Below are positions 5,073 through 59,996 of a stretch of 64,000 nt of DNA, piece after piece (positions within the stretch are counted from its first letter, which is position 1; the number at the start of each line of letters is the position of its first letter). Both the position numbers and the translations under genes were made by a program. Under the pieces are notes generated by a model. The model saw only the letters and a program-made list of their open reading frames with translations, was not told the DNA's origin and ran no database searches. This stretch comes from Tribonema minus (lineage: Eukaryota; Sar; Xanthophyceae; Tribonematales; Tribonemataceae), in assembly GCA_017506865.1 (NCBI GenBank), contig JAFCMP010000557.1, forward strand, positions 1 through 64,000. Reading direction: 5' to 3'.

Positions 5073-8000
5073 ATGCCCCCTTCAACGAGGCGAGCGGCCA
5101 GCGTCGCCGCTGTGGCAGCAGTATGTGCTCGGTGCGCCGTAGCATTCGTTCCCGCTTCCACGGCGCTGTGCCAGCGAACAGCCCTGCAGCCGGCATGGTT
5201 CTCTGCGCGCACAGCGGCAGCGAGACCCATGGCCATGTCTGCAGTGCAGGCTGCCACTAAGGAGATCATCATGCCCGCCCTGTCGTCCACCATGACGGAG
5301 GGCAAGATCGTGCAGTGGCTCAAGGAGGTTGGGGACGAAGTGCAGGTGTGTCACTGGACGCATAACATACGTCATATGAATGTACCTCTGATGCTGAAGG
5401 TGCATTGCGGAGCGGGGAAGTGACATCGACAAGCGTACTTCAACTGTCGTCAAAGCGTGACGTTCCAACAGTCACCATCATCGTCGCCTATGCACTCATC
5501 TAACCTAACCTGAACATGTGTATCGCACACATTTCCTCTGGCTTGTGATCCAACAACAGCAGTTGGATCAAGCAATTGTGTAAGCGGTATGTTTTGGTGT
5601 AGCTCCAAGCCGTAGATATGCGTAGGGATTAGGGTTAGGGTTGCACAGATCCCAACCGTGCCGCTGCTGCAATCTGCAACCACCACCCTCTTCATGAATC
5701 ATTGCACTCAAATGTTTCATGAGCACACCATTGCAGCCAAATCAAATACTTCGTCATTGCACTACTGCGCACAACCGCAATCGCATGTCCACAAGGTGTA
5801 CATGCGGCATGAGCAGCCGTGCCGCTCACGTCAACTGGCATGCAAAATGCACGTAGCACCTGCGATTGCTGCAGTTCGCATTCTTTTCAAACCTTCGGCC
5901 AAGCAGACAGGGCATGTACAGCAGTTCTGCACAAAAAACAACGTAGTGAATGTTGAAGTAAGTGTATTGGCGTTCGTGATGAGCCTCTGAGCGCAACACA
6001 TGAATCTGCTGTACGGTCAGTGCTCAGTCCCGATGCCTGGCGAGTACTGTACGTGTGAGTTACGGGGTCGGCGCACATGCGCTTCAGTTGTGCTCACCGA
6101 CACAAACACTTGAAGTGTGTGTGCCTTGGCAGTAAATGTTGACGTTAAGGCTGGTCTGCACCTCTTTTGCAACCAGACTTTGCCGTACACGTTGCGGCAC
6201 ACGCAGCCGCGTTATTGCTCTTCGGCTGCTGATGAGCGCTGACATGACGTGTGTTAGCGGTTTGTCTTCGCAATCAGACAGCAGCAACGGCAGCCAGTTC
6301 CCCGACAAATTGAAACGCGCTCATTAGCTGTGTTCTACGATGCACGCGCACGGATGCTTCGTGCAACCAGGCGGCCATCATTCTCTCGCAAAGCGCGCAC
6401 TCCTTCACAATGCTGCAATTTGCAGGGATGCCATACCCGCATATATACACCAGAACGCGCATACCATTCATGTATGCTCATGAGTGAGTGTAATGTGAGG
6501 AGCACGGCAGTGCCTCAGAGTCACCAGGAACGGGAAGGCTCCAACAGGGTGCGCGTAGGCGGGGGGCGGCGTTTGAAGCGGGCCCTAAACCTAACCCTAA
6601 GCCGGCAGCCGCTCCGACGTGTCGCGCGCTGCATGTGTCATGTCTTCGTCAAGATCGTGCAATGAGACAGTGCTGCTCGTGTGCGTGTCGCATAACTTAG
6701 GGTTAGGGTTAGATTTAGGGTTTTAGGGTTACTACTGCCGGTGCCTTGGGGCTTGGCGGCAGCAGCGGCCTCGCCAGTGCGCCCTCCTCGCTGCTGTGTG
6801 TAGATTGCTCTCGCAGAGCTTGCGGAATGCGCGCAGGGTACGGGATTCAACATGACCGTTACAGATGGATGTGACGAGAGCATGCCCCCACGTTTTCAGT
6901 GCATGGTGCACAGTCGGACAAGGCCGACATGTGGATGCAGAGTCCTTTGAGGCTGTATTATGTATGCATCATAATTGCGTACTTCAAGGTATACTACAAT
7001 AGCACTCCTTACACTTTTGGCGGTACCATATACTTCGAAGTATGTACCATATATGCATGGTAATTACATACTTCAAGGTATACTATAATAACACTCCTTA
7101 CACTTTTGGCGGTACCATTTATGTACCATATATGCGTGGTAATTACATACCTCAAGGTATACTACAACAACACTCAGTACACTTTTGGCTGTACCAAAAG
7201 TGTGCATCATTGCATGGTGGTTACATACTTGAAGGTATGCAACAACAACACTCATTGCACTTTTGGCTGTACCAAAAGTGTGCATCATAATCCATACTTC
7301 AACATATACTTCAACAACACTCGTTTCACAATTATTTGAACATTGTGTACCCCCCCGTCGGCAGGTCGGCGACGCCGTCATGGTGGTCGAATCGGACAAG
7401 GCCGACATGGACGTGGAGTCGTTTGAGGCGGGCTTCCTGGCAGCGATACTCACACCAGAGGGCGAAGCGGCGCCAGTCGGCGCGGCTGTGGCGGTTCTCG
7501 CGGAGAGCAAGGACGGCATCGCGGCGGCGGCGGCAGCGGCGGCATCTGGCGGCGGCGGCGCGGTAAGCAGCCTTCTGCTTCGTAGTATGTGAGTGGTGTG
7601 TCGTATTAAGCAAGGACTTTGGTATGAAGCGTGCATGGTGCGTGATGCATGGGCACCGCACTGGCGGTGGCGGTTCTCGCGGAGGGCAAGGACGGCATCG
7701 CGGCGGCGGTGGCAGTGGCGGCATCTGGCGGCGGCGGCACGGCAAGTAGTCGCATACTTAGAAGTATGTGAGTGGCGTGTTGTGTGTGTCAAGCGAGGAG
7801 TTTGGTGCAAAGCATGCGTGATAGTGGGCGCGGCGGTGGCGGTCCTCGCGGAGAGCAAGGACGGCATTGCGGCGGGGGGGGGAGCAGCTGCTGCTGGCGG
7901 CGGCGGCGGCAGCGGCGGCGCCGTGACCGCGTCACACAGTGGCATGTCCCAGCAAGTGTACAGTATGGCGCACAGCATGCATGATGTTGGGCACGTCAGT

Positions 8001-11000
8001 GGCGGTGCTAGCGGAGACCAGTGGCGCGTTTGGCGGCGGCGGCACTGAGCAGGGATGGGGGCAATGTTGCAGCAGCGGCATAGGCGGCGGCGGCGGCGCT
8101 GCCTGCAGTGCCGTCAGCACGCGCGCGAACAACATGACGCCAGCGCTGCGAGTGAGGTGTCATCCTCTAGCAGCACGTCACGACGTGTGTTGTGTGCGCT
8201 ACGAGCGGAGAGCCTAGACAGCATGCAGATAGTAGTGCGGGTGGCGATGCACTGAGCAAGGATAGGGACTTTGTGTAGCAGCAGCAGCGCCGGCGGCGGC
8301 AGCGGCAGCGGCGCCTCCGCCGCCTCCAACGCCGTCAGCACACGCGCAAAAGACGTGACGCCAATGCTACTTAGTAGTGCTGCCAGTGAGGCGTCATCCT
8401 TCTGCAGTACGTGACGTGTGTTGTATGCGCAACAAGAGGCGGCGTGCCCAATGACCCCTCACAGCGCAACACGAACGCGATACGGCAGCGTGAGCTCACT
8501 CACGCCCACGGTGTGGCGCCAGCGCTGCGAGTGAGGTGTCATTCTGCAGCACACGCGACGACGTGCGCGTTCACGCTACGAGCGGCAGCGCGCGCCGCGG
8601 CGGCAACACTCACAGCACAACACAAACAAAGCGCTGCAGTGCGAGCTCACGCCCACAGCCTCACGCGCAGAGGCGATGCGCGTATTTCTACGCATACGCC
8701 GGTGTGTGTCTTTTGCGAGGTGCGCTGCGCCGTGTCGATGGCACAGCGCACGGCAGCGGCGGCGCCGCTCCTCGCGAAAACCTGGCGCGTCCGCAGCACC
8801 TGCGCACACACCGCTGTGTCGCGGACCCTTGCGCACGCATGCGCATTGCATTCTCTTACAGGAGGCCCGTAAAAGCAGCCACGAAGTCGCTCACAGCCCC
8901 GCCGCTGCCTGCGCAGTTGGCCACACCCCGCCACAAACCCTAATCGCAACCCTAGCTGCGCTCACGGACACGTGCTCGCGCTCCCCCCGCATTGCGCAGG
9001 CGGCAGCGGCGCCGGCGCCCGCAGCGGCGGAGGCGCCTGCTGCCGGCGGCGGCGGCGCCTCGGGCGTGCCCGCCGGCGTGGAGTACGTGCAGAATCGCTC
9101 ACTGCTGCTGCTGCCTGCACACCCCGCCGCAGACCCTAGTTGCAGCGCTGCCTGCGCTTACAGACACGTGCTGCTCGCGCCCCCCCTTTTTTTTGCACAC
9201 ACACGAGCGCAGGCGGCAGCAGCGCCGGCGCCCGCAGCAGCCGAGGCGCCTGCGGCTGGCGGCGGCGGCGCCTCCGGCGTGCCCGATGGCGTGGAGTACG
9301 TGGAGATTGCGATGCCTGCGCTGTCGTCGACCATGACGGAGGGGAAGATTGTGCAGTGGCTCAAGGCGCCCGGCGACAAGGTGTGTACGTAGGCACAAGC
9401 AGGGGGTCTCGCCCCTCCTTGAGGTGTCTCGGCGTATTTGAGGGTCGGGGGAGAGGGCAGGGTGGGGGGGGCGGTCGGCGAGGGGGAGGGGGGGGGGCTG
9501 ATGGGGGACGCCTGACGGTGTTCTTGAAGTGCTCAGCAAGTGGCGCGGCTTGCACCAGCTGTGGACAGAGCATGTGCGGTATAGTGGGCATGGAACCGCT
9601 TGCGACAAGGCTTGGTATAACTCAGGCCCAGTGAGGTTATGATTGACTTGAAGTTGAGCCCGACCGCTGTGTAAATCGCAGCTCTGCATGCGGCGTGTGA
9701 CTGCGGGCGCACCAACAGCCGTTGCGCTGCACCGCGTGCACCACCGCCGCTGCCGTGCGTTGTGCATGTGGATGTTAATGTTATCAGCGCCGCAGTGGGT
9801 GCGCCAGAGCATCAGTCTGAACTTGACAGGCAAGTCGAGCCTGAGCACCGCCACCACTGCCGCTCTTCTTGCAGGCGATTGCCAGCACTGGGCACAACTT
9901 CAGACTGATCTGGAGCGTTGCTGACGCCAGGTGCAGTCTGCTTCAGTTTCCTGCTGGTTTTAGTTATAAAACATAACTACTACTGCTTCTGCAGCGCTTC
10001 GTGTAGGGGTGGCGCCGGTGATTACCGCAAGTGTCAAGCACAAGTTGAAGTTAACATTGAGGGTTCACTCAGCTTGAGCGCTGCGTGCACACAGGTAGAC
10101 TCCGGTGACGCGCTGCTGGTGATTGTGTCCCTCCGACTACGAGTGCTTCACACCGTACAAGGGATTTCAATTCATTCACGACTCCAAAACTGAATGCTGA
10201 GCTTTCGCTCAAGCCTGTGAGCACTGCTGCCGTGCGCAGGTTGAGTCCGGCGACGCACTGCTGGTCATCGAGTCCGACAAGGCCGACATGGACTACGAGT
10301 GCTTTGAGGAGGGCTACCTGGCGCGCATCTTGGTGGAAGAAGGCGCCTCCGCTGCTGTGGGCTCCGCCTTCGCCATCATCGTGAAGTCGGAGGCCGACAT
10401 TGCCAAGGTGCGTCACTGAGACAACACTCGCAGTTACCGACACTTGAACTTTATATCTGGCGGACAGAAATGAATGCTGTGCTAGTGAGCTGATCGAGGA
10501 GGGCACGTCCGCTGCTGTCGGCGCCGCCTTCGCCATCATCGTTAAGTCGGACGCTGACATCGCCAAGGTGCGTCACTGACATAACTGACACTTGAAGTGG
10601 TTGACTTCAGCCGCCGTCGGCGCCCCCTTCGCCATCATCGTCAAGTCGGAGGTGGACATTGCCAAGGTGAGCCGTGGCCGCTGTTGTGGTATTATTGAAG
10701 TCTGCTGTGACGTGCACCGTATGTTTTTGAGCTCTTTTTCAATACTGGTAGCGGACGGCGCCTCCTTTGCCATCATCGTCAAGTCGGAGGCCTCGACATT
10801 GCCAAGGTGCGTCACTGACATAACTGACACTTGAAGTTGTTGACTTCAAGTTCTTGGTCGGATTGAGTGAATGCTGTTCTGATGAACTGGTAGAGGAGGG
10901 CGCGTCCCGCCGCCATCGGCGCCGCCTTCGCCATCATCGTCAAGCCAGAGGCCGATATTGCCAAGGCAGGCCCGTGGTGCCGTGGTACTGTTGAGTTCTC

Positions 11001-14000
11001 CCATGATGCGGTCATGATGTACTTAGTCCTCGTCTTCAGACCTGGTGGAGGAGCGCGCCTCTGTTGCCATCAACACTTGGAGGCTCACATGGCCAAGGTA
11101 GCTTATCGCCCATGGTGACGGTAATGGTTTTACAGTTTTCACCCTGCTCATCTAACTCACTTGGTCAATGCTGGTCCAGCAGGGCACCTGCGCCGCCGTC
11201 GGCGCCGCCTTCTCCATCAGCGTCAAGTCAGATATCGACATTGTTCACATTGCCACGGTGTGTCGCTGCAAGCTCAAAGAGTAATCCCCCGCTGAGCGCC
11301 GTAAACTCCCCCCCCCCCCCCCCCACGCACCAAACCCCCGCAGGTCCAGGACGCGGCGTTCGGCGGCGCCGCCCCCGCCGCCGCCGCCGCGCCCGCCGCC
11401 GCCGCCGCCCCCCGCCGCCGCCGCCGCCCCCGCCCCTGCGGCGCCGCTCAACGACGGCCGCGTCGTCGCCAGCGGCCACGCCAAGAAGCTCGCGTCCGAC
11501 ATGGGCGTGGACCTGCGCGCCGTCGCCGGCAGCGGCCCCGGCGGCCGCATCGTCGCGTCCGACGTCGAGGCGGCCAAGGGCGGCGGCGGCAGCGCTGCTG
11601 CCGCCGCGCCCGCGTGGACGCCCGCCCCCGGCGTCGTCGCAGGTGAGAGATGCGGGCGCGTGCGTCGTTGGTTGTGCTCTGCTGCTGCGCGCGTATTCGA
11701 GAAGAGATGTTGAAGTAGTGCCGAGCAGAGGCGGCCAAGGGCGGCGGCGGCGGCGGCGGCGCTGCCGCGCCCGCGTAGACTCCTTCCCCCGGCGTCGTGA
11801 CAGGTGAGAGCAGCGGGGGCGTGCGGCGTTGGTTGTGCGCTGCTGCTGCGCGCGTATTCGAGAAGAGATGTTGTTGAAGTAGTGCCGAGCGGAGGCAGCC
11901 GAAGGCGGCGGCGGCGGCCGTGTGTGTGTGAGGACACCTTGCTCCCAAGGTCATCGCGGGTGAGAGGGCAAGAGAGAGAGCGGTCCGCAGGGCAGCTTTG
12001 GCGCGCAGGCACGGTGACCGGTGACAGCGCACGGGCTTGTTGCAGAAGCGCCTCGTGAAGTGCGCGCGAAGCGCCTTGCGCGAAGCGCCTTGCGCGCCGT
12101 TCACGCGCACATGTGCGGATGCGTCCGCCGGTGCGCATGACAGTTGAATCTGATCGCACTGACCCCTCTGCATTGTCCGTCTGCCTCGCACGCTGCCGCG
12201 CGCACGCGCACTCCCTGGCATCCCCCGCAATCAGAATCATCGCCCATTGTTGACATCGCCCGCCCACGCATTGACCATTGCCATCGTGACTGGGTGCCAT
12301 AATCACGATGAGCCACCGGTCGCATGCAACACATGCGAGCATGCTACACATTCTCTTGAAATGACCCGTACTGTCGTTGCTGACGCACAACCCTTTCGCT
12401 GCCCCCGCCCGCCCGCCGCTGCCGCGCCGCGCATCCTCTCGAAATGACCCGTACCGCCGTTGCTGACGCACAACCCCCTTTGCCGCCCCCGCCCGCGCTG
12501 CCGCTTCTGCGCCGCTGCTGCCGCGACGCGCAGCAACGCCCCGCGCCAAGGCGCTCGCCAAGAGCAAGGGCATCGACGTCACCACGCTCAAGGGCACGGG
12601 CAACTTTGGCCGCGTGACTGAGGCTGATGTCATGGCGGCGGCGGGCATTGCGCCCAAGAAGGCGGCGGCGCCGGCGCCGGCGGCGGTGGCCGCCAGCAGC
12701 GGGCGCGAGATACCGACGCTGCCGGATGGGCCCAAGGCTATGGACGGGATGCAGAAGGCTGTCGCCAAGAACATGGAAGCAGGTACATTTTCATTTTTCG
12801 TTGACTGTAATGTGGTTTTGGTGGCGGGGAGTAGTTTAATGTGAGCAGGTGCAGTTTGTGTGTTGGTCCTGTGGTGCACAGTGAGAGCCTAGGTGAATGC
12901 GCTTGGAAATCGGCACTGTCCAACAGCCCCAAGGCGATGGACGGCATGTAGAAGGCCGTTGCCAAGAACATGGAAGCAGGTGCGGTTTTGTGGCTTCATT
13001 GAAGTGTGTGTTTCGGCGGCAGGGAGCAGTATGTGGAGCAGGTGCGGTTTGTCGTGGGTGAAAGGTGAAAGGTACGGGTTGAAGCATCCAGTGGCAGACA
13101 GCGAGGGTTATGGTGAATGCACTCACCTTGAACATCGACGCTACCCGCCAGACCTGAGGCTAAAAAAGCACGCAGAAGGCTGCCGGCAACAACATGAAGT
13201 CAGGTGCAGTTTGCCTCACCAAACAAGCATTGAAAGTGCAACAGACATCGGCAAGTCTTGCTGGCTCATTGGTGAATGCACTGTCCCGCACATTGGGTTT
13301 GTGATGAGCGCTACGGCTTTGTCAAGTGTCAAAGGCGCTGTCGGGGTTATTACCGCTGCATCTGACAATCTCCACCGCCGTGTGCCATGATGTGATTCAT
13401 GCCGCATGTTTCCATTACCGGCGCAGCAGCGCGCGCCTGTGCTCTGGCACTGCCCAATGGTGTGAAGTTAAGCTCACTACGCCAGGGATGGTCCACAGCT
13501 CGTGTTGCAGCGCACGCGTGTGCTTGTGTGCTTGGGAGAGAAAATGTACCTAATGGCAGGCACATGACTGACCTCCAGCCTGACAAGCTCTGCCTGACCC
13601 ACTCGACGCATCACGCGCGAAGCGGACGTACCAACACTGTCCTTGTGCACACACACACTCGCTGTTGAAGAGGGCAGCAAGCGCGCATGAGCTGCTGGGC
13701 ACACTGCGAACGTGAACCGCAGTCACATCATCGCTTGTACTTGCGCACTCACTGCCTGATGGTGACGTGCAGTTGAAGTTGACGTGCCACTCTGCTGCGA
13801 CGCACGCGCGCTCACTCAAGAAGGGGCTAGCAAGGGAGGCGCATGGCTCCGGCACGCTCTACTCAAGCTGCTCTGCGCGTCACAGCCAGCCTGTCACAAC
13901 ACAGTCTCATCAAGGCTTGTGCTTGCGCATGCATTCCCCGTTGGCGCGCGCGCGCAGGCATGGACGTACCCGTCTTCCGCGTCTCGCGCAGGATCCGCAC

Positions 14001-15602: not shown

Positions 15603-15773
15603 ATGGCAGACCAGCTTGCGACCGCCTTGGTCGATGCCTTGGGCCAGACCTTGGGCCAGAACAATATATTCTTGTGCTTGGCGGAGCATGGCAATGTGAA
15701 TGTGCCGGCCGACAGCGTTAGCGGAGTCGTCCACTGCACCACCCCCGACAGTTTGTACCCGCCATGGAGGTAG
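15603..15773 (+). other. 56-codon ORF overlapping the helicase-like start; possible true N-terminus
   Basis: An ATG at 15603 opens a frame whose product reads like real protein (LATALVDALGQTLG, NNIFLCLAEHGNVNV) and stops at 15771-15773, ten bases inside the next frame. The frame starting at 15764 is also open upstream as far as the C5 run at 15742-15746. A 1-base change in that run would join them (HCTTPRQFVPAMEVALS). So this is either an upstream ORF or the true N-terminus of the helicase-like protein cut by an indel. Confidence 0.4.
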
Positions 15774-27047: not shown

Positions 27048-27078
<31 letters not shown>

Positions 27079-27216: not shown

Positions 27217-30200
27217 CTACGCGACCTCCGCGACCTCGTGCTGCTGCTGCCGCGGCGCCGCCGCGCGCGCGTCCGCGTCTGCGAACGGGTCGACGCCCGC
27301 GCTGCGCAGCGCGACGGCGCCGAGCGCTGCCTCGCGGGTCAGCGCCCCGCGCGGTGCGGCGGAGGCGGCGGCGCCGCGCGGGTGCGGCGGCGGCACGACG
27401 GGCGTCTGCGAGTTGACGTCTGTCCACGCGCCGGGGACGCCCCACGCGCAGTTGGACTCGATGAGCAGCTGGTTCTCGCCGCGCACGAGGCGGAACCAGC
27501 CCTGCTCGCCCCAGTACTCGCCTGGGGGGTGGGGGCGGGGAGGGGGGTGGGGGGGGGGCAGAGGGCGTGTCAGCATGGCGGCTGGGCTGCAAAACGTCAG
27601 TGGTTGACAGGAGCGGTGTGCTCTGAATGGTGGCTAGTCTGCACTGTGGCAGGCAAGCAGCTGCATGTACCAGGTGGGGGGGGCGGGGGGGGGGGGGGGG
27701 GGGGGGGGGGTTGCAGCGTTGCATGTGCTGTGGTCATGCGTCCGCGCTGCGTTTCTTGCACGCGTGCCACTTTTGCGAGACGACGCGCACGAGGGGAGTG
27801 CATGTCAGCACCTCTTGCCCGGCTCCGGCGGGCTCACACGGCCAACGCAGTGCCATCCACAGCCATCCAGTGCGTGATACATGTAGGCAGCTCGCTAAGC
27901 AGCAACGGCGCCCTCCGCTGCCGTCGTCATCACGCTTGACGCCCACGCACCGCACAAATTGCGCACGACTTGAGAGTAATATTGCGCCCATCCAGCGCGC
28001 CCCGCACCACGACAGGCACGACAGAATTATATGCGCAGCGCAGCGCAGCGGCAGCGCTCGACCGCCAGCGCCGCGGCAGCGCAGCGCCCACTGACTCACC
28101 CCAAGAGTTGCGCACGACCCAGTACTTCTTGCCGCCGTCCGTGACGCCCCACCCCACGATTGACACGACGTGGTTCGTCCCGGGCGACTTCTGCGGCCAG
28201 TCGAGAACCCCCCCCGTGTACTCGTGCAGCGGGTCGGCGTCGATGTCGCACGCGATGGGGCCGCGCGCAAAGACCTCCTTCATGATGGCCCTCTCGCCGA
28301 CCGCGTCGCCGAACTCGGCGACCGTGGCGTTGGGGTAGGGGGCGACGGGCTGGGGGGGGGGGAGAGGGGGGTGACGGGGGGGGGTAGGGAGGGGGGGGTC
28401 AGGTGATGCGAACCGGCGGTTTGCGTGAAGGTCGAGGTTTGCAAAAGCTGCAGAGGGAAGGATCGCGTCGCCGAACTCGGCGACCGTGGCGTTGGGGTAG
28501 GGGGCGACGGGCTGCGCGCTGTGGGGGGGGGGGGGGGGGGGGGTCAGGTGATGGGAAGTGGCGGTTTGCATGAAGTTTTTGAGGTTCACAAAAGCTGCAG
28601 GGGGAAGGATGACATTGACGAAGACAGCAACCGTGGCGTTGGCGGCCGGGTGCGCGTTGGGGGGTGGGGTGGGGGGGGAGGGTGATGGGAAGTAGCAGTT
28701 TGCGTGAAGATTGAGGTTCAAAAAAGCTGCAGAGGGGAGGATGACCTTAATCATGACAGGGAGGGGGAAGGCGGTCTGTGAAGGTGTCTGATGCTGCACT
28801 GGCGTCAGGTGATAGGAAGTGGCTCGCGTGAAGGTTGAGATCTGCGAAAGCTGCAGAGGACAGGATGACTTTGTGATGATGACAGGGAGGGGGGAGGTGG
28901 TGTGTGAGGGTATCTGATGTTGCTCTGCCTGGAGTTGATGGGTCAAAGAAAGCGCTGTGAGCAACAGCGTTGCATCATTGTGGGTTTGGGTCAAGGGTGC
29001 ATGCAAAGGGTGGGGTACCCTTGCAGTGATCCTGACCTTGACCCTGTTTGACGCCGTGCGCAGTGCTCTTCACAATCAAGACAAACTTGACTCCAAGTGA
29101 CCCGCCTCGAACAAGTCACAGGTGAGTCAAATCATACTACATGGACGTGACTGCATGGGGCCACACCAGCACTCACGATGCACGCGTGGGCAAACGTCCA
29201 ACACGTGCGGCACACACTGAGCAACTTGCACTCAATTCATGACAAAACTGACTCCAAGTGACTCTCTCGTACGGTTTACAATCGAGTCAAATCACGCTGC
29301 CTCTACTCCACCAGCACTCACGATGCATGTATCGTCGAAGGTCCAGCACGTGCGGCACACGTTGAGCGGCTCGCACTCAATGACGAATGCAACTCCAGGT
29401 GACTCGCCTCAAACGAGTCGCAGGCGAGTCAAATCACGCTACCTACTGTACCAGCACCAGTCCACTTCTCAAAAGACTAATTAAATTTGGCACTCACGAT
29501 GCACGTGTCATCGAAGGTCCAGCACGTGCGGCACAGGTTGAGCGGCTCACACTTCAACATTGTGACGAACGCGAATCCAAACGATTGGAGAACGTCAAAC
29601 GCGACCGCATGTGGACACACTAGCACTCACGATGCACGTGTCGTCGAAGGTCCAGCACGTGCGGCACACGTTGAGCGGCTCGCACTTTTCGTCGCGCGCC
29701 TTGTACTGCTGGCACGTGTCAAAGGGGATCGCGTTCTCCGTCCCCCACTCGAAGACCCCCTTGGCGAACCCCCCGTGGCACGACCCCGCCGTCGCCGTTG
29801 CGCAGTTGAGAATCACCTACACAAGGAAGGGGGGGGGGGGGGGGTATGTGGTTATGTGCTGCAGCGATTGTGCATACCCAAAAAGCGATCGCCGCGATCA
29901 CCGGCGGCTACCGCGGCTTTGTGCGGCGAACACGCAATGTATCCATTGCGTGCACAATCAGTAGGGGATCGCCTGCAGAAGCGGGAGGTGTGGAAGGTTG
30001 TGATGGCCGGTGAACTTGAACATTGCAAGCGCCGCAGAGCCAGTTGAAGTTCGCAGGCTGCGACAGGAGGCGGCGCCAAGAGGTAGTACCGGCATGCGCC
30101 GTGCTTGCCATTGGAAGCAGTGACGTGCCACGGTGAAAGCCTCCGATGGCCACACCTTGCGTCATTGCAGTCGCGCACGAGGTGTTTCAAGGTACAAAGC

Positions 30201-40281: not shown

Positions 40282-43200
40282 CTACGCCAGAGCGCGGTGG
40301 AGCGTCACGGTGCCGCTCAGCGCCGCCGCGCCGCCGCTGCCGCCATCGCCAAAGTCGTGGACGCGCGCGAGCGACGCGACGGCGACGGCGTCGCCGCGGC
40401 GCCGCCCCTTGACGCGGTCCGCGAGGTGGTCGCCGTGCGCGGCGCTCGCCGTCGCGGCGTGGTGCGCGCGCTCGCGCCACAGCGCGGACGGGCGCGCGGC
40501 GAGCTCCGGCTTTCTGTGTGACGAGACGGATGGGCGCGCGGCGAGCTCTGATTTGTGCGCGATGAGACGAGGGGGCGGGGGGCCCCGGGGGGGGGGAGGG
40601 GGATGGGGATGGGATGCCGTGATTGGTGTGAAGTTGTGCTAATGAAGAGGTTGCGAATTTGAACGCCAAGTTCACGCTGTGCTGTGTGTGACGGGCTGCT
40701 GCTGCCGCTGCTGGCGTGTCGTTTCGATGCTGGTGCGCGGTTGGCGCTGCTGCTGCTGCGGGCTCCCGCGTGTGCATGCGCCAGCGCCTGTCGCTGGCTT
40801 GTTCGTGCCAAGAGCAAGCAATGTAGAAGTATGTGTTAGGGCTATATTTGATGAGTTGGGCTTTCAATTTGCGCATCTGGTATGTCAGCGCGCCTTCCCA
40901 CGCCTTCTCCGTGTGCCGTTCGCTGCCGTAATGACATCAAGCGAATACCCTCATGCGCATACCATGAAGTATCGGAGTTTGCAAGCTTGAAGAGATGGTA
41001 CTTTTGTGTTGGGACTCACTTGAGGGCGATCATGGCGTGCGCGTGCGCCATGTCGGAGGCGACGTGGTCGAGCCGCGCGCGCGTCACGGCGAGCGCCGCG
41101 CGCGCCTCGCGCTGAGCACTGAGGCGAGCCTCGCGCAGCCCCTGCCCTAGCCGCGCCCTGCGCGCACACGTGACAGCACCAGCACCTTCCGCTGTTAGTA
41201 TCAAAACGAATCCAAAGATCATAGAGCTCTAGGTGACAAGGGGTGGTTAGCCGCAAGCGCCTTCCACCAAAAGTATATTGTTGATCGATGGTGACAGCCG
41301 CTTGAGGGGCGGACACCTTATTAGTACTGATGCGCAGCCCCTGTCCGAGTCGCGCCCTGCGCGCACACGTGGCAGCGGGCAGTGGCTTTTACTGTTAGTA
41401 TGATGTTGCTTGGATAGTTACTGCAGCTTGAGGGCGGGACACCTTGTTGTACTCATGCGCAGCGCCTGCAGATGCGGCACACCACGTGCGCGCATAGCAA
41501 TACCGCAGCTTCCACTGTCACCACCAGCGTTAGTTGTATCTGGTGCGGCTTGAGCGGGTGCAAACCCTCCTGTGGTGATGTGAGCAGCAGATGCAGAGCA
41601 GTTGCCGAGCCGAGTCGTGCCCTGCATGCAAGCGCAGTGGCACCACCAGACCTTCACCCTTATACGTCACAGCGCATCAGTGCAGTAATCACGTCGGCTG
41701 CATGCCTGATCATGTACCGTGTGTGGCGCACGTACACACCGCTTCGGCAGCAGAAGCAGATTGCGCAGAAACGCCGCCCCGCGCCGAGTGCCTACCATTC
41801 CTCCGCCTGCGTCGTCGCGAGGTCGCGGCGCCGCGCGTCGTTCGCGCGCGCACACCTGTTGCAGCTGCTCCTCTTTGCGCGTTCATATATGTGCGTATGT
41901 ACTTTTTATTAGTTCTCGCTCAGGGCGCGAAAAAGCCCAGATGAATGGCAGTACGGAATCTACATGTCGCGTGACAGTCTGAAAGTGTCTCAACGACAAC
42001 CACTCAAACGCCGCCGCCGCCAAATGGCGCATGTACATGCATGCATACTGCTCTACAGCAATGAATTATAACAGCACACAGAGGCGCTGTCCGTGCGCGC
42101 TCACCGTTCCTCCGCCTGCTTGGTATCGAGGTCGCAGCGCCGCGCGTCGACCGCGCGCGCGCACTTGTTGAAGCATACATACATATGTACGCACATGTGT
42201 GCGTTGTATTCTACAGCAATAAAGCATCAGAGTGCATACAGAGGCGCTGCTGTGCGTGCTCACCGTTCCTCCGCCTGCGTGGTATCGAGGTCGCGGCGCC
42301 GCGCGTCGACCGCGCGCGCGCACCTGTGCGCGTGCGCCGCCTCCTCCTTGGGCCTGCGCTTGTCCAGTGCGCGCCGCACGAGCTGCGCCTCGTGGTACTG
42401 ACGCAACTTCACGAGGCTCTTCTCTGCCTGTGTGGGTTGCAACCAGGGTTAGGGTTTGGGTAAGGTTTAGGCGGCTTCGGGATAGGGGTAGGATTCAGGA
42501 TGACGAGGCTCGTGCTACTGCCGGAGCTTCACCTAGCTCTTCTCTGCCTGTGAGGGTTGCATTCAGGGTTAGGGTTTGGGTAAGGGTTGAAGTTGGGGTC
42601 CAGGAGGATGAGGCCTCATGGTACTGCCGCAGGTTCACAGGCTCTTCTCTGCCTGCAAAGGTGGCAATTGAGGTGAGGTTGGACGTTAAAACTTGGGCCC
42701 GCGCTTGTCCAGCGCGCGCCGCACGAGCTGCGCCTCGTTGTACTGACGCAGCTTCACGAGGCTCTTCTCTGCCTGCGTTTGGGTAAGGGTTAGAATTAGG
42801 GTTTGGGTAAGGATTAGGGTTACGGTTCAGGAGGATGAGTGGTTTACAATTAGTTTTAGGGTTTGGGTCAGGGTTAAGGTTGGGGTGCAGTAGGACAAGG
42901 CCTCGTGGTACTGCCTCAGCTTCACCAGGCTCTTCTCTGCCTGTGAGGGTTGCAATGAGGGTTAGGCTGAGGTGAGCATTAAGGGTTGAGACTAGGGTTC
43001 GCTAGGGTCAGGCCTTGTGGTACTGCGGCAGCTTTATCAGGCTCTTCGCTGCCCGAAGGGGCGATCGTGTATATTGGAACACGGGCTAGGGCGAGGGGTG
43101 TGAGAGAACAGAATTGAAAGTATGGCTTGTGTCGCTGCCGCATTCTGCACCGTCACGGCGCCTCACACGAATCTGTGCCCATGACTCTGACTCGCGACTT

Positions 43201-47035: not shown

Positions 47036-47263
47036 GTTTCCACCGTCGACCCCAAGCTTTGCTGCCAGAGAAGACCACTATGTACGTATACCCACCTTGC
47101 ACCTCACCTCACTGCGACGGTTACGTTTGGTGAAAAAGTTCAACTGCATTGCAAGCATGGGCAATGGCCCACAGCTGACAGCTGACCGCGTCCGGCAAGT
47201 AGGTCGTACACAGAGCCGTCTGTCAGCTGACCGGGACCCGCTCTTGTCGGTGCTACTTAGGAG
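47036..47263. promoter_or_regulatory. Short divergent promoter region: coiled-coil / ankyrin genes
   Basis: Only 228 bases separate the inferred start codons, much like the cathepsin/dynein pair. A near-perfect internal duplication is visible (CAGCTGACAGCTGACCG, then TCTGTCAGCTGACCG). No clear TATA box. Confidence 0.4.
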
Positions 47264-50200
47264 ATGCGGGTGGCCCCAGAACACGGTAACACATTGCCGG
47301 CCCAGGAGGAGGCTCGCGCTGTTGCTGGCCAGGATGTGGCTGTCAAGGCGCCGACAGCAAATCTGGCGCAGCAAAGCGAGAATCTTACGGAGCAGATGCT
47401 GGCTGATTACTATGCAAAACCTCAGGTGAAGGGTCATGTAAATCGTAGCCTTGGGTCAGCATGCTCGCTGAACCCGATGAGAGCGTAGTCACGTTTACCT
47501 GCACTCTGTTAGGCTTGCCTATTTTTAAGGGATTGAAGCATGTCGCACACACCAGCAAAAACGGGGTTATGGACTCGGTGATACCAGCGCTGGGTACTCA
47601 ACAGCGACGTCGCCCACTCACGTGCGCAGCCTCACAGTGGCTGCCACCTTGCTTTGTGGTGGAGGCAGCTCTTCCTGACAGCCGTAAATTTCAGGAGATG
47701 AACAGAACTTGAAGCAAAGTGAACAGGCGAGCCCGTGCATAGGGAAAGCATCAGGGCGAGGCTTGTAGGCCGGGAGGCGTAGAGTTGGGACAAGGGTTCT
47801 GATGGCGGCATGCATTCATTCATTCACTATACGTGTATAAATTTGCACGCATGCGGATAGGGACGAGGGCCCCGCGCGCGAGCGGCGCTGGCCACTGTAC
47901 GCGCTGATGAACCTTATTCTACCCCTAAGTAACCTTAAATGGCGCGACGCCACAGGACGCACCTATGATCGTGTACCCTCCTGCATACTACAGTGTGACC
48001 CCTTCTTCATACCCCAATAATTTGCATGTTTGCAGGTTGACGCTTCTCACTTCTCGAGGCGGCATGCACCATGTATAAAATACTGACGCTTCTCACTTCT
48101 CGAGGCGGCATGCACTATTTAATAATTATGCAGGCGGACAGGGACGAGGGTCCCGCGCGCGAGCGGCGCTGGCCGCTGTACGCGCTGCGCAAACGCAGTA
48201 GGCAATGACCCTGCGTATTCCACCAACTCGGGTTTTTGTCTCAAACACTGCTTACTTCTAGAGGCGGCATTTACTCTTTAAAGTAATTCATCATAGCATG
48301 TATGAACTTGCGCACAGGCAGACAAGGATGACGGCCCTGCGCGCGAGCGGCGCTGGCCGCTGTACGCGCTGCGCAAGGCCGTCGGCTGCGCGCAGCTGGG
48401 GCTGCACGAGGCAGTGCTCGACGGCGACGCCTACGTGGTGCGCGCCACGGCGCTGCGCCTCGGACGCCGCAACGCAAAGCTGGTCAACGAGCGGGACGCA
48501 GGTGTGCGCGGTTGAAGTTGAAGATCTGAGTGTCCATACTTCAAGTGTGCAGTGCTCACTGCGACGCCTACGTGGTGTGCGCCACTGCGCTGCGCCTCGG
48601 CCGCCGCAACGCAAAGCTGGTCAACGAGCGCGACGCAGGTGCTCACGGTTGAAGTTGAAGTTGAAGTTCTGAAAGGTCCGTACATCAAGTGTGCAGTGCT
48701 CGACGGCGACGCCTACGTGGTGCGCGCCACGGCGCTGCGCCGCGGCCCCGCAACGCAAAGCTGGTCAACGGGCGGGACGCAGGTGCGCAGTTGAAGTGCT
48801 GCTTGTCCGTACTTCAAGTGTGCAGTGCTCAGCGGCAACGCTCCGCCCGAGCAGATGCGCCGAAGGGTGGAAATGGGCCAGTGTGCGGCACGGTCGTGGT
48901 GGCAATAGTCATTCCGCATGCTTGACGTGAGAGCGTGTCACCAAATCGACTGGGGCTCTGCTGCGCTGAGCGCCACACTCAAGAACTCATACGGCGCTTT
49001 CACGTGTACGACCATGTCCTGGGCGAACGTGGTAGCACGATGGCGTCATTTCAACGACTCCGTCCGTGGCGACGACAGCCGTTCTGCGCAATTTTCCTGA
49101 GAGCCACAATCTTTCAAAAACTTTGCTTTTGCTGCTGCTCTCATGCTGAGCGCTGCTGCAGACGGCCGCACGGCGCTGTCGCTGGCGGTGAAGATCGGCG
49201 ACGAAAACGTGGCAGTGCAGCTGATTGGCCTGCCCAAGGTCGACCTCGACGCCGCCGACGCAACCACGGGACTGACGCCGCTGCACCACGCCGTGCAGCT
49301 CAACCTGAGCCGTGTGGTGAGTGAGTCACAAATAAGGCACATCTGGAACATACATGCCGCCGAGTGTGCGCCGCAAATAAGACTTGTCTGGAAAACACAT
49401 GCTGCCGACGCGACCGCGGGACTCATGCCGCTGCACCACGCCGTGCAGCTCAACCTGAGCCGTGTTGTGAGTGTTGCAGCAGTGCTCGAGGAGAATGGCA
49501 GCATTTTGGGGGTTAGGGTCGGAATTTAGGGTGACAATAGGGTTTTAAAAGATAGGGGATGGGGCTAGGTTTTCAGACTCAGGGCTAACGGAACTCAAGC
49601 CGCCGCGCCACGCCGTGCAGCTCCACCTGAGCCGTGTGGTAAGTGTGCTGCAAATAAGACACATCTGGAAACTATATGCTGCCGACGCGACGTCAGGACT
49701 GACGCTGCTGCACCACGCCGTGCAGCTCAACCTGTGCCGTGGTGGAAGTGCTGCAGCAGCGCTCAGGGGAAACACAGCAATTGGATTAGGGTCAGAATTC
49801 AGGGTTAGGATAAAAGATAGGGCTAGGGTAGGGTCGGAAGTTACAGGACTCACTCTGCTGCACCGCGCCGTGCAGATCAACCTGAGGCGTGTGGTGAGTA
49901 CGCCGCAAATAAGACACCTGGGATACACATGCCGCTAAGCCGTGCCGTGCAGCTCAATCTGAGCCGTGTGAATGGCGTTGCAGCAGTGCTCACGGTCAAG
50001 CGTACCGTTTGGGTTGTGATTGAAGTCAAAGGTAGGACTAAGATGATGACTATAGTGAGGTTTGAGGCTAGGAAGCACAGGCTTCACGCTGCTGCTCAGT
50101 CTGAGCCGTGTGGTGAGTGCGCCGCGAATAAAACACATACGGAATATACACGCCGCACGCCATGGTGAGCAGCTCAACCTGAGCCATGTGGAAAGTGCTC

Positions 50201-51767
50201 CACTAAAAATACACATCACGAATACAAAGGCCGCTGCGCCGCGCGTGCAGCTCAAGCTGAGCCGTGTGGTGAGTGCGGTGCTCAGCGTTAGGGTTAGGCT
50301 GAGCGTTGAGATAAGGTGGGGTCAAGGATAGGGTCAAGGGTCAAGGGCAATGGTGCTCGCACCACTGCACCCCGGTATACACACCCTGGAACTCGGACGC
50401 ATGTGGGTTGTTGTAGTAGACTCCAACATCTTCTGAAGTAGCTGTTGTCGAGGAATGTGTGTGTGGGGAGGGGGCTGAGAACGTGAGCGCGCATGCAGCG
50501 ACGCAGCATTCAGCAAGTTGCAAGCGGCGAAGCGTCCAGCGAGCTTCACTTAAGCACTGCATCTGACAGTGCTCCGCAAGCTGTGAAGCATTCAGCAAGC
50601 TTCATGTATGCGCTGCGCGTATGCACTGCACCTGACAGTTCTCTACAATGCCTACATGCTCTGATGGCCTTGCAGACAAGTCACCTGTGCAAGGCAGGCG
50701 CGGCGGCGGACCGCGCTGACGCCGCCGGCATGACGCCCCTCATGCTGGCCTGCCGCCTAGGGCACCAGGACATGCAGGTATGTTGCTGAGCCTTGCCATA
50801 GTCGAGCACAGTGCCGTTCAGAACTTCAGGCGTGTTGGCGGTGCCTGTCGTGTCGTGCAGGTACCGAGGTGCATTCCATTGCCGCGCATTGCATCGCATC
50901 TAGCGATGTCTGAACGACGTCGGTCGCCGCCACGATGCGTGTGTGTGTTGCTGAGTATCCATCACTGCAGAGCATCACCACGATGCGCGACCATCGCTGA
51001 GCATCATCACTTGCATCGTGGAGCATCATCACTATGCAGGTGCATCGCCGAGCATCACCAACCTACTGCACTGCTGGACACCATCACCGTAATGCAGTGC
51101 CTGGCTGACCATCATCATGATGCAACGGCATCGCTGAGCTCCATGTCGCTCAGGTCGTCTCGGTACGGCGCACGCATTGCGATGCCTGTCTCTAGGCGCA
51201 CTGCGACGGGGCGGCCATGCCGACACCCCATCCGTGACCTCCTAGCATTTTTGCATGGCTTACGCTTTTCCTATTGTGTACATGGGCTCAAGCTCATCCC
51301 CCCCCCATGGGCTCAACCCCCCCCCACCTCAACCCCATCTCTCACCTCAACCCCAGCCCCCCTTCTACCTCCCCCCGTCTGGACCAGCCTTGCATCACAA
51401 TGATCTTTACACGGCACGCGCTTTCATGTGGCAGCGCCGCGCCTCCCCCCCTTCCCTCTGAACTCGGCTCCATCGTTAGCATCGATGGTCACCTCAACCC
51501 CTATCCCCCCCACACGCGCAGGCGATACTGGTAGAGACGGGCGGCGCGTCGCTGCACGCGCGCGACGCCGCGGGCTGGACCGCGCTGCACTACGCGGCCT
51601 ACCACGGCGAGGGCGAGTGCGCAGACTACCTGCTGCACAGGGGCGCGGACGCCGCAGCGCGCGACGCGCGCGGCCTCGCGCCGCTCGACTGGGCGGACGC
51701 CATGGGCTACGGTGACGTCGCCGCGTACCTCGAGAGCTACGCGCGCGCGGCGCAGGGGCGCCTGTGA
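47264..51767 (+). CDS. Ankyrin-repeat protein
   Basis: Five exons: 47264-47425, 48318-48501, 49162-49316, 50676-50777 and 51522-51767; 282 residues with consistent phases (0,1,0,0). Exon 1 (54 residues, acidic/Ala-rich, ending LADYYAKPQ) is the least certain. The rest forms about five ankyrin repeats: a divergent first one around YALRKAVGCAQLGLHEAVLD, then DGRTALSLAVKIGDENVAVQ, TTGLTPLHHAVQLNLSRV, AAGMTPLMLACRLGHQDMQ, AAGWTALHYAAYHGEGECAD and ARGLAPLDWADAMGYGDVAA. Ankyrin repeats mediate protein-protein binding; partners cannot be told. No signal peptide or membrane segment. The third repeat looks shortened at the exon 3-4 junction. Introns 1-3 carry long series of exon-edge copies. Confidence 0.85.
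47850..48195 (+). repeat. Copies of the acceptor and 5' edge of ankyrin-gene exon 2
   Basis: GCGGACAGGGACGAGGGTCC and CGCGCGCGAGCGGCGCTGGC, then CGCTGTACGCGCTG, occur at about 47852-47912 and 48130-48192 before the real exon 2 (48318). Flanks (ACTTCTCGAGGCGGCATGCA) are also repeated. Both copies run into stops or diverge soon after TACGCGCTG. Confidence 0.88.
48546..48860 (+). repeat. Three copies of the 3' edge of ankyrin-gene exon 2
   Basis: The last 95 bases of exon 2 (GCAGTGCTCGACGGCGACGC through CTGGTCAACGAGCGGGACGC, then AG and the donor) recur at 48546-48638, 48688-48782 and, truncated, 48820-48860. Spacers hold GGTTGAAGTTGAAG and TACTTCAAGTGTGCAGTGCT, so each unit is about 145 bases and spans the junction. 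Confidence 0.92.
49404..50268 (+). repeat. Eight copies of the 3' edge of ankyrin-gene exon 3
   Basis: CACGCCGTGCAGCTCAACCT, then GAGCCGTGTG and GTGAGT, recurs at about 49404-49466, 49591-49638, 49681-49743, 49842-49893, 49931-49970, 50078-50112, 50150-50190 and 50231-50268. Most keep a GTGAGT or GTAAGT donor, followed by the intron-start block GCAAATAAGACACATCTGGA. They range from nearly exact to barely recognisable. Confidence 0.93.
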
Positions 51768-57000: not shown

Positions 57001-59996
57001 TGCCCAGTTTTGGCATTGTGGCCAATCATTCGACGGCGCGGTCTTGCGAGCGGCTTGATTCGGTTGGCAGACGCTCGAAGCCTGCATGAGCTGCGGCTCG
57101 CCATCACGTATTGAAATAAGCGGCGTTACCTGCCCCTTGGTCGCCCGGATCCCCCTCCCCCCGGCCCGCCCCCGCCTGCAGGACATATCAATGCATGCCT
57201 GACCACCCCCATTCTGAATTCCCCCCCCCCCCCGCCCCCCCCTGCAGGACATATCAACATTGGCTCGACAGATCGGTCATCTACCACACGGGGCGCTGGG
57301 TGGGGTTCGGCGTGCTGCTCGGCGTGTACCTCCTGCGCGTGTACATCATACAGGGCTGGTTCATCGTCACATATGGCCTGGGCATCTTCCTCCTCAACAA
57401 CTTCATAGGATTCCTCTCGCCGCAAGTGGACCCGGAGATGGATGGGCCGGGGCTGCCGACGGCGAGCACGGACGAATTCCGGCCGTTCACGCGGCGCCTG
57501 CCGGAGTTCCAGTTTTGGCACAGCAGCACCAGGTGACTCTCCCCTATCCATATATTGAAGTTGGTGCGCCGTGGTGCGCAGAGCTCAAGCTGTAGCTCAT
57601 GCGTACGAAGAGAGATGCATGTTCGGCGAGCATGGACGAGTTTCGGCCGTTCAAGCGGCGCCTGCCGCAATTCCAGTTCTGGCATAGCAGCACCAGGCGA
57701 CTCTCCCCTGTCTGTAAACTGCGTTGAAGCGTGGTGCGCAGACTTCAAGTTGCTGTAGCTGATGTGTAGACTCGAGTTGCTGTAGCTGATGTGGTCAAAG
57801 AGAGATGCGGCGAGCACGGACGAGTTCCGGCCGTTCACGCGGCGCCTGCCAGAGTTCCAGTTCTGGCACAGTGTGCGCCCAGGTGTTGTCGATGCAACGC
57901 ATCTCGGTACCTGTACGACATTAATTAATTGATGCAACGCATCTCGGTACCTGGGGGACATTAATTAATCACTTAATGCCGTACAGGTACCGATCAATTA
58001 ATGTCGTACAGGTACCGAGATGCGTTGATGAATTAATGCCGTACAGGTACCGAGATGCGTTGCATCGACATTAATTTATTCATGTCGTACAGGTACCGAG
58101 ATGCGTTGCATCGACAACATCTGGGGCGCACAAAAGCAGCAACAGGTGTCTCTCCCCGACCGTTGTAGCTGGGGTGCGCAGACCTCTTGCTGTAGCTGAT
58201 GCGGACGAAGAGATATGCATGTTTGACAAACACGGACAAGCCCAGCCGTGTTACGCAGCGGCTGCTGGAATTCCAGTTCTGGCACAGCAGCACCAGGTGA
58301 CTCGCCACTGTCCGAAAACTGCGCAGACCTCATGCTGTAGCTGATGCGGACAAAGACAGATGCACGTCGGCAAACACGGACAAAGAGAGATGCATGTTCC
58401 GCGGACACGGATGAATTCCGGCCGTTCACGCGGCGCCTGCCGGAGTTTCAGTTCTGGCACGGCAGCACCAGGTGACTCTCCCCTTTCCATCAACCGTTGA
58501 AGCGTGGTGCGCAGACCTCATGCTGTGGCTGAAGTGTACAGAGAGAGCACATGCGGTGAGCACGGACGAGTACCGGCCATTCACGCGGCGCCTGCCGGAG
58601 TTCCAGTTCTGGCACAGCAGCACAAGGCGACTCTGCCCTGTTCATGAACTGAGTTGAAGTAGCACCAGGTGACTCTCCTCTGTCCATGAACGTCGAAGCT
58701 GGTGCGTAGACCCCACGCCGCTGTAGCTGATTCGTACACAGAGAGTGCATTCGGCAACACGCACGAGTTCCGGCCGTTCGCGCGGCGGCTGCCAGAGTTC
58801 CAGTTCTGGCACAGCAGCACCAGGTGACTCTCCCCTCGCCCGTGATTCGTTCGAAGCGTGGTTCGCAGACCTCAAGCTGTAGCCGATGCGTACAGAGCGG
58901 TTGCATTCGGCGAGCACTGACGCGCTTCGGCCGCGGCCGCGTGTTGCGCGGTGGCTGCATTCGCGCACTGCTTGTGCTAACCAGCCTGGCCATGCAGGGC
59001 GCCGCTCTGCTGGTTCAACTTCAACTTCAAATGTCAACTGCGCTGACACATTTCAATACGCCGCATCGCCGCGCTCCGCGCTGTCGCAGGGGGGTGCTGA
59101 CGGCGCTGGTGATGACGCACTTCAGCCTGTTCGACGTGCCCGTCTTCTGGCCGATACTGCTGGTCTACTTTGTCGTCCTCTTCTTCCTCACCATGAAGCG
59201 GCAAATCAAGCACATGATCAAACACAGGTGCGCAAACTCCTCGTCGTTTGGGCCGCCTGCACGTTCATTGTCGCATGGATTTCCGGGCAGCACCAATCAT
59301 GTCGCTTGCTTGACACGCCGCTCGGTGCGCGCGCACACCTGCTACATAGCGTGCTACAGGGCGTGATACTGTGCATTGTGTGCTCACAGAAGGCACCATC
59401 GCGTGTGCAGGACAGGGTCAGCTGGGTGCTAGCAGTCGTGTCCCTGTCCCCATCGGAAGAACATATGTGTTGCAGAGCACTGCCGCGCATGGCAGTGCTC
59501 ATCCACCTGATGTCTGGAGTGCCCCTCCCCCCCCGCTGACTTGAAGTTGCAACTGATGTGAAACCAGACATGTTCTAGTATCAGTTCTGGCATGCATGTC
59601 ATCATGACCAGCACGACAGTTGCCTAGGTATGCCAGTGTACGCTCATCGTTCAGCCTTGATGCATGTGAACTGTGCCAGCACAGCGAGTGGCGCGTACAT
59701 GGTCCTGGGGTGCCATTAGCGTCTTCTCATGGCGTGCAGGCAGTGGCTAAGACGGCAACTACATATGCAAACGCCTGTGCCATACACCCCATCTCCGACT
59801 GCTCGGCAAGCACTTGGCAGCGGGCGTCGATGCTCATCATCGCCGCTGCTTGCATGACTGTCACCGGTGCTTTATGGCTCACTTCTCGCCTCATCCCCCC
59901 ACGATCTGCAGATACGTGCCGTGGAACTGGGGCAAAGCAAAATATCGCGGCGGCGATGGGGGGACACCAGGGTCGGTGAAGATGGGGAAAAGCTAG
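54058..59996 (+). CDS. RER1: RER1, Golgi-to-ER retrieval receptor
   Basis: Four exons: 54058-54122, 57248-57532, 59090-59227 and 59912-59996; exactly 191 codons, 190 residues, the usual RER1 length. RER1 sits in the cis-Golgi membrane and returns escaped ER membrane proteins via COPI vesicles. Exon 1 gives [10 protein letters not shown]. Exon 2 starts [18 protein letters not shown], then transmembrane helices around [20 protein letters not shown] and [19 protein letters not shown], the family motif SPQVDPE, and [19 protein letters not shown]. Exon 3 gives [20 protein letters not shown] and [13 protein letters not shown]. Exon 4 gives [15 protein letters not shown]. All junctions fall in phase 2. 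The first intron is 3.1 kb; the second holds seven copies of the exon 2 edge and a palindromic element. Confidence 0.95.
57622..58940 (+). repeat. Seven copies of the 3' edge of RER1 exon 2
   Basis: The last about 75 bases of exon 2 (GCGAGCACGGACGAATTCCG through TTTTGGCACAGCAGCACCAG, donor GTGACTCTCCCC) recur at 57622-57696, 57810-57882, 58226-58296, 58400-58471, 58555-58626, 58751-58823 and, partial, 58909-58940, plus a bare AGCACCAGGTGACTCTCC at 58661. The intron start (GTGGTGCGCAGACCTCA, GCTGTAGCTGATGCG) repeats with each. A copy of the exon's 5' edge (CCTGCAGGACATATCAA) lies at 57177-57193, before the real acceptor. Confidence 0.93.
57872..58132. repeat. Palindromic element of nested inverted repeats
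   Basis: The arms 57872-57921 and 58082-58132 are inverted repeats; the inner 37 bases (GTTGTCGATGCAACGCATCT, then CGGTACCTGTACGACAT) match perfectly. Between them lie further units, one more forward and three more reversed, each with GGTACC and ATTAATT. The element interrupts one of the RER1 exon-edge copies (57810-57882). It has no coding capacity and resembles a small hairpin or MITE-like insertion that then grew by duplication. Confidence 0.88.

Follow-up and report, generated by a model that had tools for sequence, protein, structure and literature searches.

Exon-edge copies in the genes of the window

The window analysed here is the first 64 kilobases (kb) of contig 554 of the Tribonema minus assembly (158 megabases, 554 contigs), and it holds several multi-exon genes whose introns contain partial copies of an adjoining exon edge together with its splice site. 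Behind an exon these copies read as 'exon end, donor, intron start' units, and before an exon as 'intron end, acceptor, exon start' units. An earlier note on this DNA had described copies in this order in six genes (E2, cathepsin, SEC-C, coiled-coil, ankyrin and RER1) and had proposed self-dotplots of each; self-comparison of the window returned dense local direct repeats in the genes named, and the order of the units was seen both there and on reading of the E2, RER1 and cathepsin-like genes.

Eight window introns were modelled (five in E2, two in the cathepsin-like gene and one in RER1), their junctions being placed by reading, without a family model, and E2 intron 5 was omitted because the frame of exon 5 is unclear. 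An edge was scored as copied when it matched its own intron with a local score of at least 20 and a z value of at least 5 against dinucleotide shuffles, a criterion equal for edges and controls that was set after looking at a looser run at z 4. By this edge test 10 of the 16 window edges had copies, in comparison to 0 of 16 reverse complements and 0 of 15 far exon ends. Support was uneven among the six genes, as E2, RER1 and the cathepsin-like gene account for the ten copied edges, the ankyrin gene has eight donor-side copies (80–93% identical) behind a putative real donor, the coiled-coil gene (a putative gene model) has two copies of one segment, and SEC-C did not hold up beyond a single weak copy of 30 nucleotides (nt). 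The identity of E2 is backed by homology of its pieces and an Ank match was found in the ankyrin gene, while RER1 and cathepsin are presumed names, in line with the earlier note; one open reading frame tested from the cathepsin gene and one from the coiled-coil gene had no Pfam match. The features are listed below with copy positions given as offsets in nt.

5073..5345, + strand: E2 (dihydrolipoamide acyltransferase) exon 1, real donor after 5345 (E2 homology, sequence)
5346..7364, + strand: E2 intron 1, acceptor edge passes the edge test, no copy extracted within 12 nt of the junction (edge test, copy extraction)
7365..7562, + strand: E2 exon 2, real donor GTAAGC after 7562 (reading)
7563..9212, + strand: E2 intron 2, donor-side copies at 179, 348 and 520 from the real donor, acceptor-side copy 213 before exon 3 (edge test, extraction); GC-rich extra matches at 1494 and 935 are of doubtful status (extraction)
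9213..9380, + strand: E2 exon 3 (reading)
9381..10239, + strand: E2 intron 3, acceptor-side copy at 145 (edge test, extraction)
10240..10407, + strand: E2 exon 4, real donor GTGCGT after 10407 (reading)
10408..11343, + strand: E2 intron 4, donor-side copies at 160, 259, 399 (GT), 558 (GC) and 841 (edge test, extraction)
11344..11642, + strand: E2 exon 5, frame unclear, its end followed by tandem copies at 11567-11918 with period 161 (self-comparison, reading)
12783..13957, + strand: E2 intron 6, donor-side copies at 197 and 421 (edge test, extraction)
28350..29321, - strand: cathepsin-like intron, one donor-side copy (145) and acceptor-side copies (162, 310) (reading, edge test, extraction)
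30715..32977, - strand: cathepsin-like intron, acceptor-side copy at 360, another partial copy between by eye (reading, edge test, extraction)
41789..42353, - strand: coiled-coil gene (putative model), segment 42257-42353 with copies at 41789-41880 and 42099-42168 (sequence comparison)
49261..50275, + strand: ankyrin gene, exon end with donor GTGAGT and eight copies downstream (Ank match, sequence comparison)
57533..59089, + strand: RER1 intron, donor-side copies at 164, 348 (9 nt short of the junction), 764, 939, 1094 and 1291 (reading, edge test, extraction)

Within E2 exon 5 an apparent frame change occurs across a C-rich run (11344-11460), which may be a sequencing error, a polymorphism or another junction. 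A near-palindrome of 260 bases (79%) lies within the RER1 intron array at 57872-58132.

Exon-edge copies in three gene families on other contigs

Three families were chosen by a Pfam search of the genome, independently of the genes picked in the earlier note, namely chaperonins (PF00118), tRNA synthetases (PF00133) and HSP70 (PF00012). Introns were modelled from continuity of Pfam model position, reading phase and splice consensus, and the claim that the joined real exons keep phase was borne out in these genes. Exon pairs qualified as candidates if adjacent and separated by at most 25 model positions, which gave 64 (32 chaperonin, 10 tRNA synthetase, 22 HSP70); 56 of them were used and eight dropped, their junction being ambiguous or none being acceptable. 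The HSP70 set comprised four genes, the two on contig C522 being paralogues and hence non-independent, and the tRNA synthetase set six pieces from four contigs. Pfam matches read as copies (C5, C51, C135, C445, C527) were kept out of the exon chains with the longer match taken as the exon, which left C51 with no usable intron. In intron C544.1 the acceptor ranked second, 12 nt away, was taken, and differences in model gap were 5 in C279b.1, 2 in C135.3 and H522a.2, and 1 in C279a.3 and H41.5.

A comparison of exon ends with their own introns, which the earlier note had called for genome-wide, gave in this sample a copy at 23 of the 112 edges of these 56 introns, at donors (14/56) as well as acceptors (9/56). 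Copies were present in 18 of the 56 introns and in 10 of 19 genes or gene pieces, and by family the edges with copies were 14/54 in chaperonins, 7/18 in tRNA synthetases and 2/40 in HSP70. The far ends of the same exons matched their own intron in 0 of 103 cases and reverse complements of the edges in 1 of 112. In a further control, the two edges of each of the 64 introns (the eight from the window among them) were compared with the nearest-length intron of another sequence, and none of these 128 comparisons (one foreign intron per edge) gave a match. The difference between edges and far ends was highly significant (Fisher P 1.0e-7), edges within one gene being non-independent.

A tally made from hidden Markov model (HMM) matches only, in five families (the three sampled, kinesins and SNF2), contained 371 matches and excluded those to PF00227 and PF00504. 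Seven pairs stood in the predicted order, one pair in the opposite order consisted of two copies within one C51 array, and nine other overlaps were seen. Near junctions, direct repeats were found in 339 of 2334 windows in comparison to 6 for inverted repeats. Exon-edge copying is therefore real and reaches beyond the window, and the copies, being head-to-tail, direct and contiguous, belong to the class of tandem genomic duplications.

Unit anatomy and intron length

Statistics on copy anatomy, spacing, site conservation and similarity by distance, as well as total duplication coverage, include the window introns. The passing edges numbered 33 (23 outside the window and 10 within it), and 31 of them gave copies within 12 nt of the junction, 78 in all, with a median exonic part of 59 nt and intronic part of 68 nt. 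The spacing from copy to copy had a median of 156.5 nt (interquartile range 134–186); 69 of the 78 spacings fell between 75 and 224 nt, and the remaining nine were larger and may skip a missed copy. No frame preference was found in the 78 spacings, residues modulo 3 being 22, 25 and 31. In introns outside the window self-similarity was absent at offsets of 15–44 (0 of about 954,000 window pairs), rare at 45–74, commoner from 75 to about 200 and showed more peaks above, while the window introns had some at offsets of 15–44 (51 of about 312,000 window pairs). The low-complexity filter conceals just the very short repeat periods. A young case is seen in the HSP70 intron H41.3 (C41), where 47 exonic nt and the adjoining 38 intronic nt form one contiguous unit that is repeated head-to-tail at offset 85, and TTG stands both at the unit start and at the start of the sequence after the unit, a microhomology of about 3 base pairs (bp).

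Introns with edge copies were longer, with a median of 918 nt in comparison to 459 nt without (P 1.3e-6). Edge copies were present in 0 of 9 introns of 0–299 nt, 1 of 16 of 300–499 nt, 6 of 19 of 500–799 nt, 8 of 9 of 800–1499 nt and 3 of 3 of at least 1500 nt, so that 11 of 12 introns of at least 800 nt had copies as against 1 of 25 below 500 nt. Local duplication exceeded 5% of length in 25 of the 56 introns, eight of these being without copied edges; conversely, a single intron with a copied edge had no more than 5% local duplication.

Direction of change and age of the copies

Two pairs of paralogues allowed the direction of change to be judged. An intron at the same position and phase in two Cpn60 paralogues measures 2382 nt on C516, with four acceptor-side copies, and 357 nt on C511, with none. 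At 47 sites that differ between the two exons the C516 copies carry the C516 base in 44 instances, the C511 base in none and another base in three; the copies overlap, so that the sites are non-independent. Similarly, in an LHC gene on C1 two acceptor-side copies lie at offsets of 176 and 312 (junction set by eye), and neither turned up in the 800 nt that precede this exon in its paralogue on C79; at 24 differing sites the copies have the C1 base in 18, the C79 base in five and neither in one. In both pairs the copies are private to one paralogue and mostly carry its bases; the partial copies are thus derived, and the intron grew. The alternative of a Rogers-type intron gain, in which the intron start resembles the start of the next exon, fits poorly in E2 and RER1 by eye and was rejected in C516/C511, the one judgeable pair, where both paralogues have the intron and the copies are derived.

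The copy nearest to the exon was on average the most similar to it (0.914 in comparison to 0.847 for the others; 19 arrays, P 0.0014), and the correlation of similarity with distance was negative in eight of nine arrays of three or more copies. Arrays therefore appear to grow from the exon side, a pattern that fits repeated duplication at the real edge. Over their exonic stretch the copies have diverged from the real exon by 0–29%, and this divergence tends to rise with distance.

Two HSP70 regions (C179:221900-222700 and C90:847000-847900) are 98.5% identical, and one intron differs between them by a 29-bp tandem duplication that is not at an edge; short local duplication is therefore recent or ongoing.

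Splice sites in the copies

Many copies retain a recognisable splice site: among 53 donor copies 35 still show GT and 7 more GC, and AG survives in 21 of 25 acceptor copies. When donor copies were compared among themselves, GT was conserved at 0.748 and the intron flank at 0.733, and no selection on splice sites was seen in donor-side copies. Among acceptor copies the signal was mixed, AG being conserved above the intron flank (values below) but not above the exon part (0.75 in comparison to 0.83; seven arrays). In the genes outside the window exonic differences between copy and exon were 0.078, 0.058 and 0.137 at codon positions 1, 2 and 3, the pattern that a constrained real exon and a freely changing copy would leave.

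Distribution of duplication in introns, exons and flanks

Local duplication covers 22% of the 47.7 kb of modelled introns, and none of block-shuffled introns. A junction hotspot was sought and coverage was 0.25 at the exon edge, 0.12–0.19 in the intron interior and 0.01–0.03 at 80–120 nt inside the exon; because slowly changing exon sequence makes copies easier to recognise, the higher value at the edge may stem from detection and is not evidence for a hotspot.

Coverage of the flanks at ten chaperonin loci was 604 of 12407 nt on the 5' side and 465 of 10610 nt on the 3' side, with 8 nt from an HSP70 locus counted in these totals. The duplicated stretches sit in C51, C511 and C544, where the flanks of C51 and C544 probably hold undetected terminal exons and that of C511 may not. 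Within the window the 1-kb bins at 0-5, 14-26, 32-35, 40, 46, 52-55 and 59-63 kb are free of local duplication, and these are not all intergenic, bin 32 belonging to an intron of the cathepsin-like gene and 62-63 kb having a lactonase match. Five stretches of 4 kb or 2 kb at round coordinates were also sampled (L084-L088); arrays were seen in L085, where the gene carries proteasome repeats, and one duplicated run in L087, while L086 and L088 have none. In L084 a repeat of period 66/72 (2464-2872) is an in-frame coding leucine-rich repeat and no intron array. Short duplicated runs of unknown gene context, were the following; the two open reading frames tested in L003 and L008 had no Pfam match.

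L087, 610-859: local duplicated run
L003, 2495-3077: local duplicated run
L005, 50-159: local duplicated run
L007, 582-755: local duplicated run
L008, 2270-2555: local duplicated run

Probable intron growth by recurrent tandem duplication

Taken together, introns in this genome probably lengthen through tandem duplications that recur and involve segments of about nucleosome size, roughly 75–220 nt. The earlier note had proposed tandem duplication across a junction with the outer sites spliced, and this is supported by the order and spacing of the units, the absence of far-end copies, the neutral-looking decay of donor copies and the derived state in two paralogue pairs. If a segment spanning a donor were duplicated, the real exon end would stay in place and a second 'exon end, donor, intron start' unit would lie behind it, while at an acceptor the added 'intron end, acceptor, exon start' unit would come to lie ahead of the real exon start. 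Splicing from the first donor to the last acceptor would leave the protein as it was, and such use of the outer sites is suggested by protein continuity. The extra units would amount to half-exons, lacking an acceptor before them on the donor side and a donor behind them on the acceptor side; site recognition in pairs across the exon (exon definition) could then ignore them, so that the duplication would be tolerated. Tolerated duplications would recur at the real edge, and older units would be pushed into the intron and decay there. That exon definition underlies the tolerance is what we infer from these patterns, and the same holds for the mutational mechanism.

This account is refined in two respects. 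The junction is not clearly a hotspot, as duplication reaches nearly the same level further inside introns and eight of the 56 show it internally with no edge copy, and the size range of 75–224 nt together with the nil flank arrays goes beyond what tolerance alone would give. Copying of exon edges seems to be a main route to long introns in T. minus. A more far-reaching proposal, which we put forward tentatively and rate as somewhat doubtful, is that a process with a characteristic, nucleosome-like unit acts in introns and repeatedly re-copies the real edge, such that half-exon arrays grow outward like a conveyor and make most long introns, and that splicing here needs exon definition in order to pass over many good decoy sites.

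Several results weigh against the duplication reading. The HSP70 genes are poor in copies, and alignment of the paralogue pair on C522 revealed no arrays. Under the looser first criterion (z 4) reverse complements (5/70) and far ends (1/62) also passed. Identity of real to copied donor sites is 97–100% at -2, +1 and +5 in comparison to 80% at +2 and 70% at +3, which we read as constraint on the real site alone, and AG of acceptor copies is kept above the intron flank (0.875 in comparison to 0.612; six arrays, 95% interval of the difference 0.115–0.406). Beside four array-bearing genes the 8464 nt of flank had no duplication coverage, which uniform mutation with tolerance does not predict unless the flanks are constrained or young. 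As a counterweight to this last point, four of seven loci of unknown context (L003, L005, L007 and L008 of L002-L008) have short duplicated runs, so that these loci leave a restriction to introns unproven; such a restriction is possible, but flanks could be under constraint or contain further genes, and the intergenic sample is small.

Alternative explanations

Ordinary intron minisatellites, meaning a general local repeat process with no special junction or unit size, form an alternative that overlaps with recurrent duplication and does not exclude it, and we consider it a reasonable possibility of below-even probability. The duplication of interiors at a level not far under that of the junction, with an edge excess that may be due to detection, is what such a process would leave, as are the eight introns with internal duplication only, the short offsets (15–44) in the window introns and the 29-bp difference between near-identical introns. 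These short periods are, however, absent from introns outside the window, the nearest copies look youngest in a manner that points to repeated use of the real edge, and the flanks beside four array-bearing genes are without arrays.

Functional decoys, in which copied sites are kept to regulate or slow splicing or to recruit U1 or U2AF, appear unlikely. GT and AG persist in the copies at the frequencies given above, several consensus positions are nearer to the real site than is the flanking intron, and the retention of acceptor AG over the intron flank would be expected of decoys. Yet GT in donor copies is no better kept than its flank, spacing ignores the frame and the copies are specific to one paralogue in two pairs.

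Tandem exon duplication, or mutually exclusive exons in decay, would also give partial exons in tandem, but such an origin is highly improbable and complete duplicated exons with both sites were rejected, as the far end of the exons tested was never found in the adjoining intron (0/103, and 0/15 in the window). An assembly artefact (collapse of haplotypes or repeats) is similarly improbable: local repeats are hard to assemble and near-identical contig stretches do occur (C296/C490, C90/C179), but the exonic divergence of the copies and its increase with distance, and the recurrence of the pattern on many contigs, led to its rejection. Introners of some algae have units of 100–200 nt, a size similar to that of the units in these intronic arrays, but introner-like or other mobile elements can be practically dismissed by the cross-gene control (0/128, one foreign intron per edge), since the copies are private to their gene and hold the exon's own sequence, and inverted repeats near junctions are almost none.

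Relation to known systems

Intron gain by tandem duplication is known from a review (PMC3443670), from potato (PMC4974935), where the duplicated segment spans an intron-exon junction, and from Drosophila (PMC2891723). The review and potato cases share with T. minus short tandem duplications within genes and the re-use of original or copied splice signals, but there a new intron arises, whereas here an existing intron grows, in arrays and in many genes, and the copied sites are apparently unused. In Drosophila new intron positions likewise involve partial exon duplication with a splice motif followed by intronisation, but in five cases described the duplication is inside coding exons around proto-splice sites. 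In human segmental duplicates internal tandem repeats spanning exon-intron boundaries lengthen or create introns in recent paralogues (PMC2812944), the closeness lying in the boundary-spanning repeat and the longer introns; that study reports 27 intron modifications with units averaging 30 bp and minisatellite expansion, in contrast to a median spacing near 157 nt and edge copies in 11 of 12 sampled introns of at least 800 nt here. Tandem and mutually exclusive exons (PMC6071210) also arise by duplication of an exon with adjacent intron, but as complete exons with both sites, copies of which were not found here. Introners (Amoebophrya, PMC7789003, with Micromonas and Aureococcus named there) share recurrent repeat-linked intron change in algae and protists, but are dispersed families, whereas the copies here are private to each gene.

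The earlier note knew of no description of systematic exon-edge arrays, and none that presents them as a main source of intron length was found among the matches listed in full-text searches of an open-access library. Single junction duplications are known, and arrays that build most long introns look like a new form of these. Intron length is usually attributed to transposons. Local duplication, often across junctions, was found here in 11 of the 12 sampled introns of at least 800 nt, with the order of units readable and the direction given by two paralogue pairs. The arrays also constitute a natural experiment on splice-site choice, as near-identical sites, one used and several presumably ignored, lie in the same pre-mRNA, and can separate local sequence from exon context in this choice.

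Other features

Loci L050 (C296) and L051 (C490) are identical over 3411 bases in opposite orientation, which may represent a haplotype contig or a recent duplication. Of three LHC exons compared with PDB chains, two gave the multi-domain LHCI chains of 9vfj first, followed by single-domain chains that include ACP and CAC chains, and for the third FCP chains ranked first; with these names read as cryptophyte and fucoxanthin proteins, the matches would suggest a red-lineage plastid. Large open frames occupy 15700-21000 of the window, where local duplication is absent; four that were tested had no Pfam match at 0.01 and one has a P-loop-like GHCQSGKS. In the region of the coiled-coil gene telomere-like CAGGGTTAGGGT and TAACCC runs are located at 44069-44105 and 45025-45057, and TTGAAG / CTTCAA strings recur at 48411-48797 of the window and in introns of several chaperonin genes.

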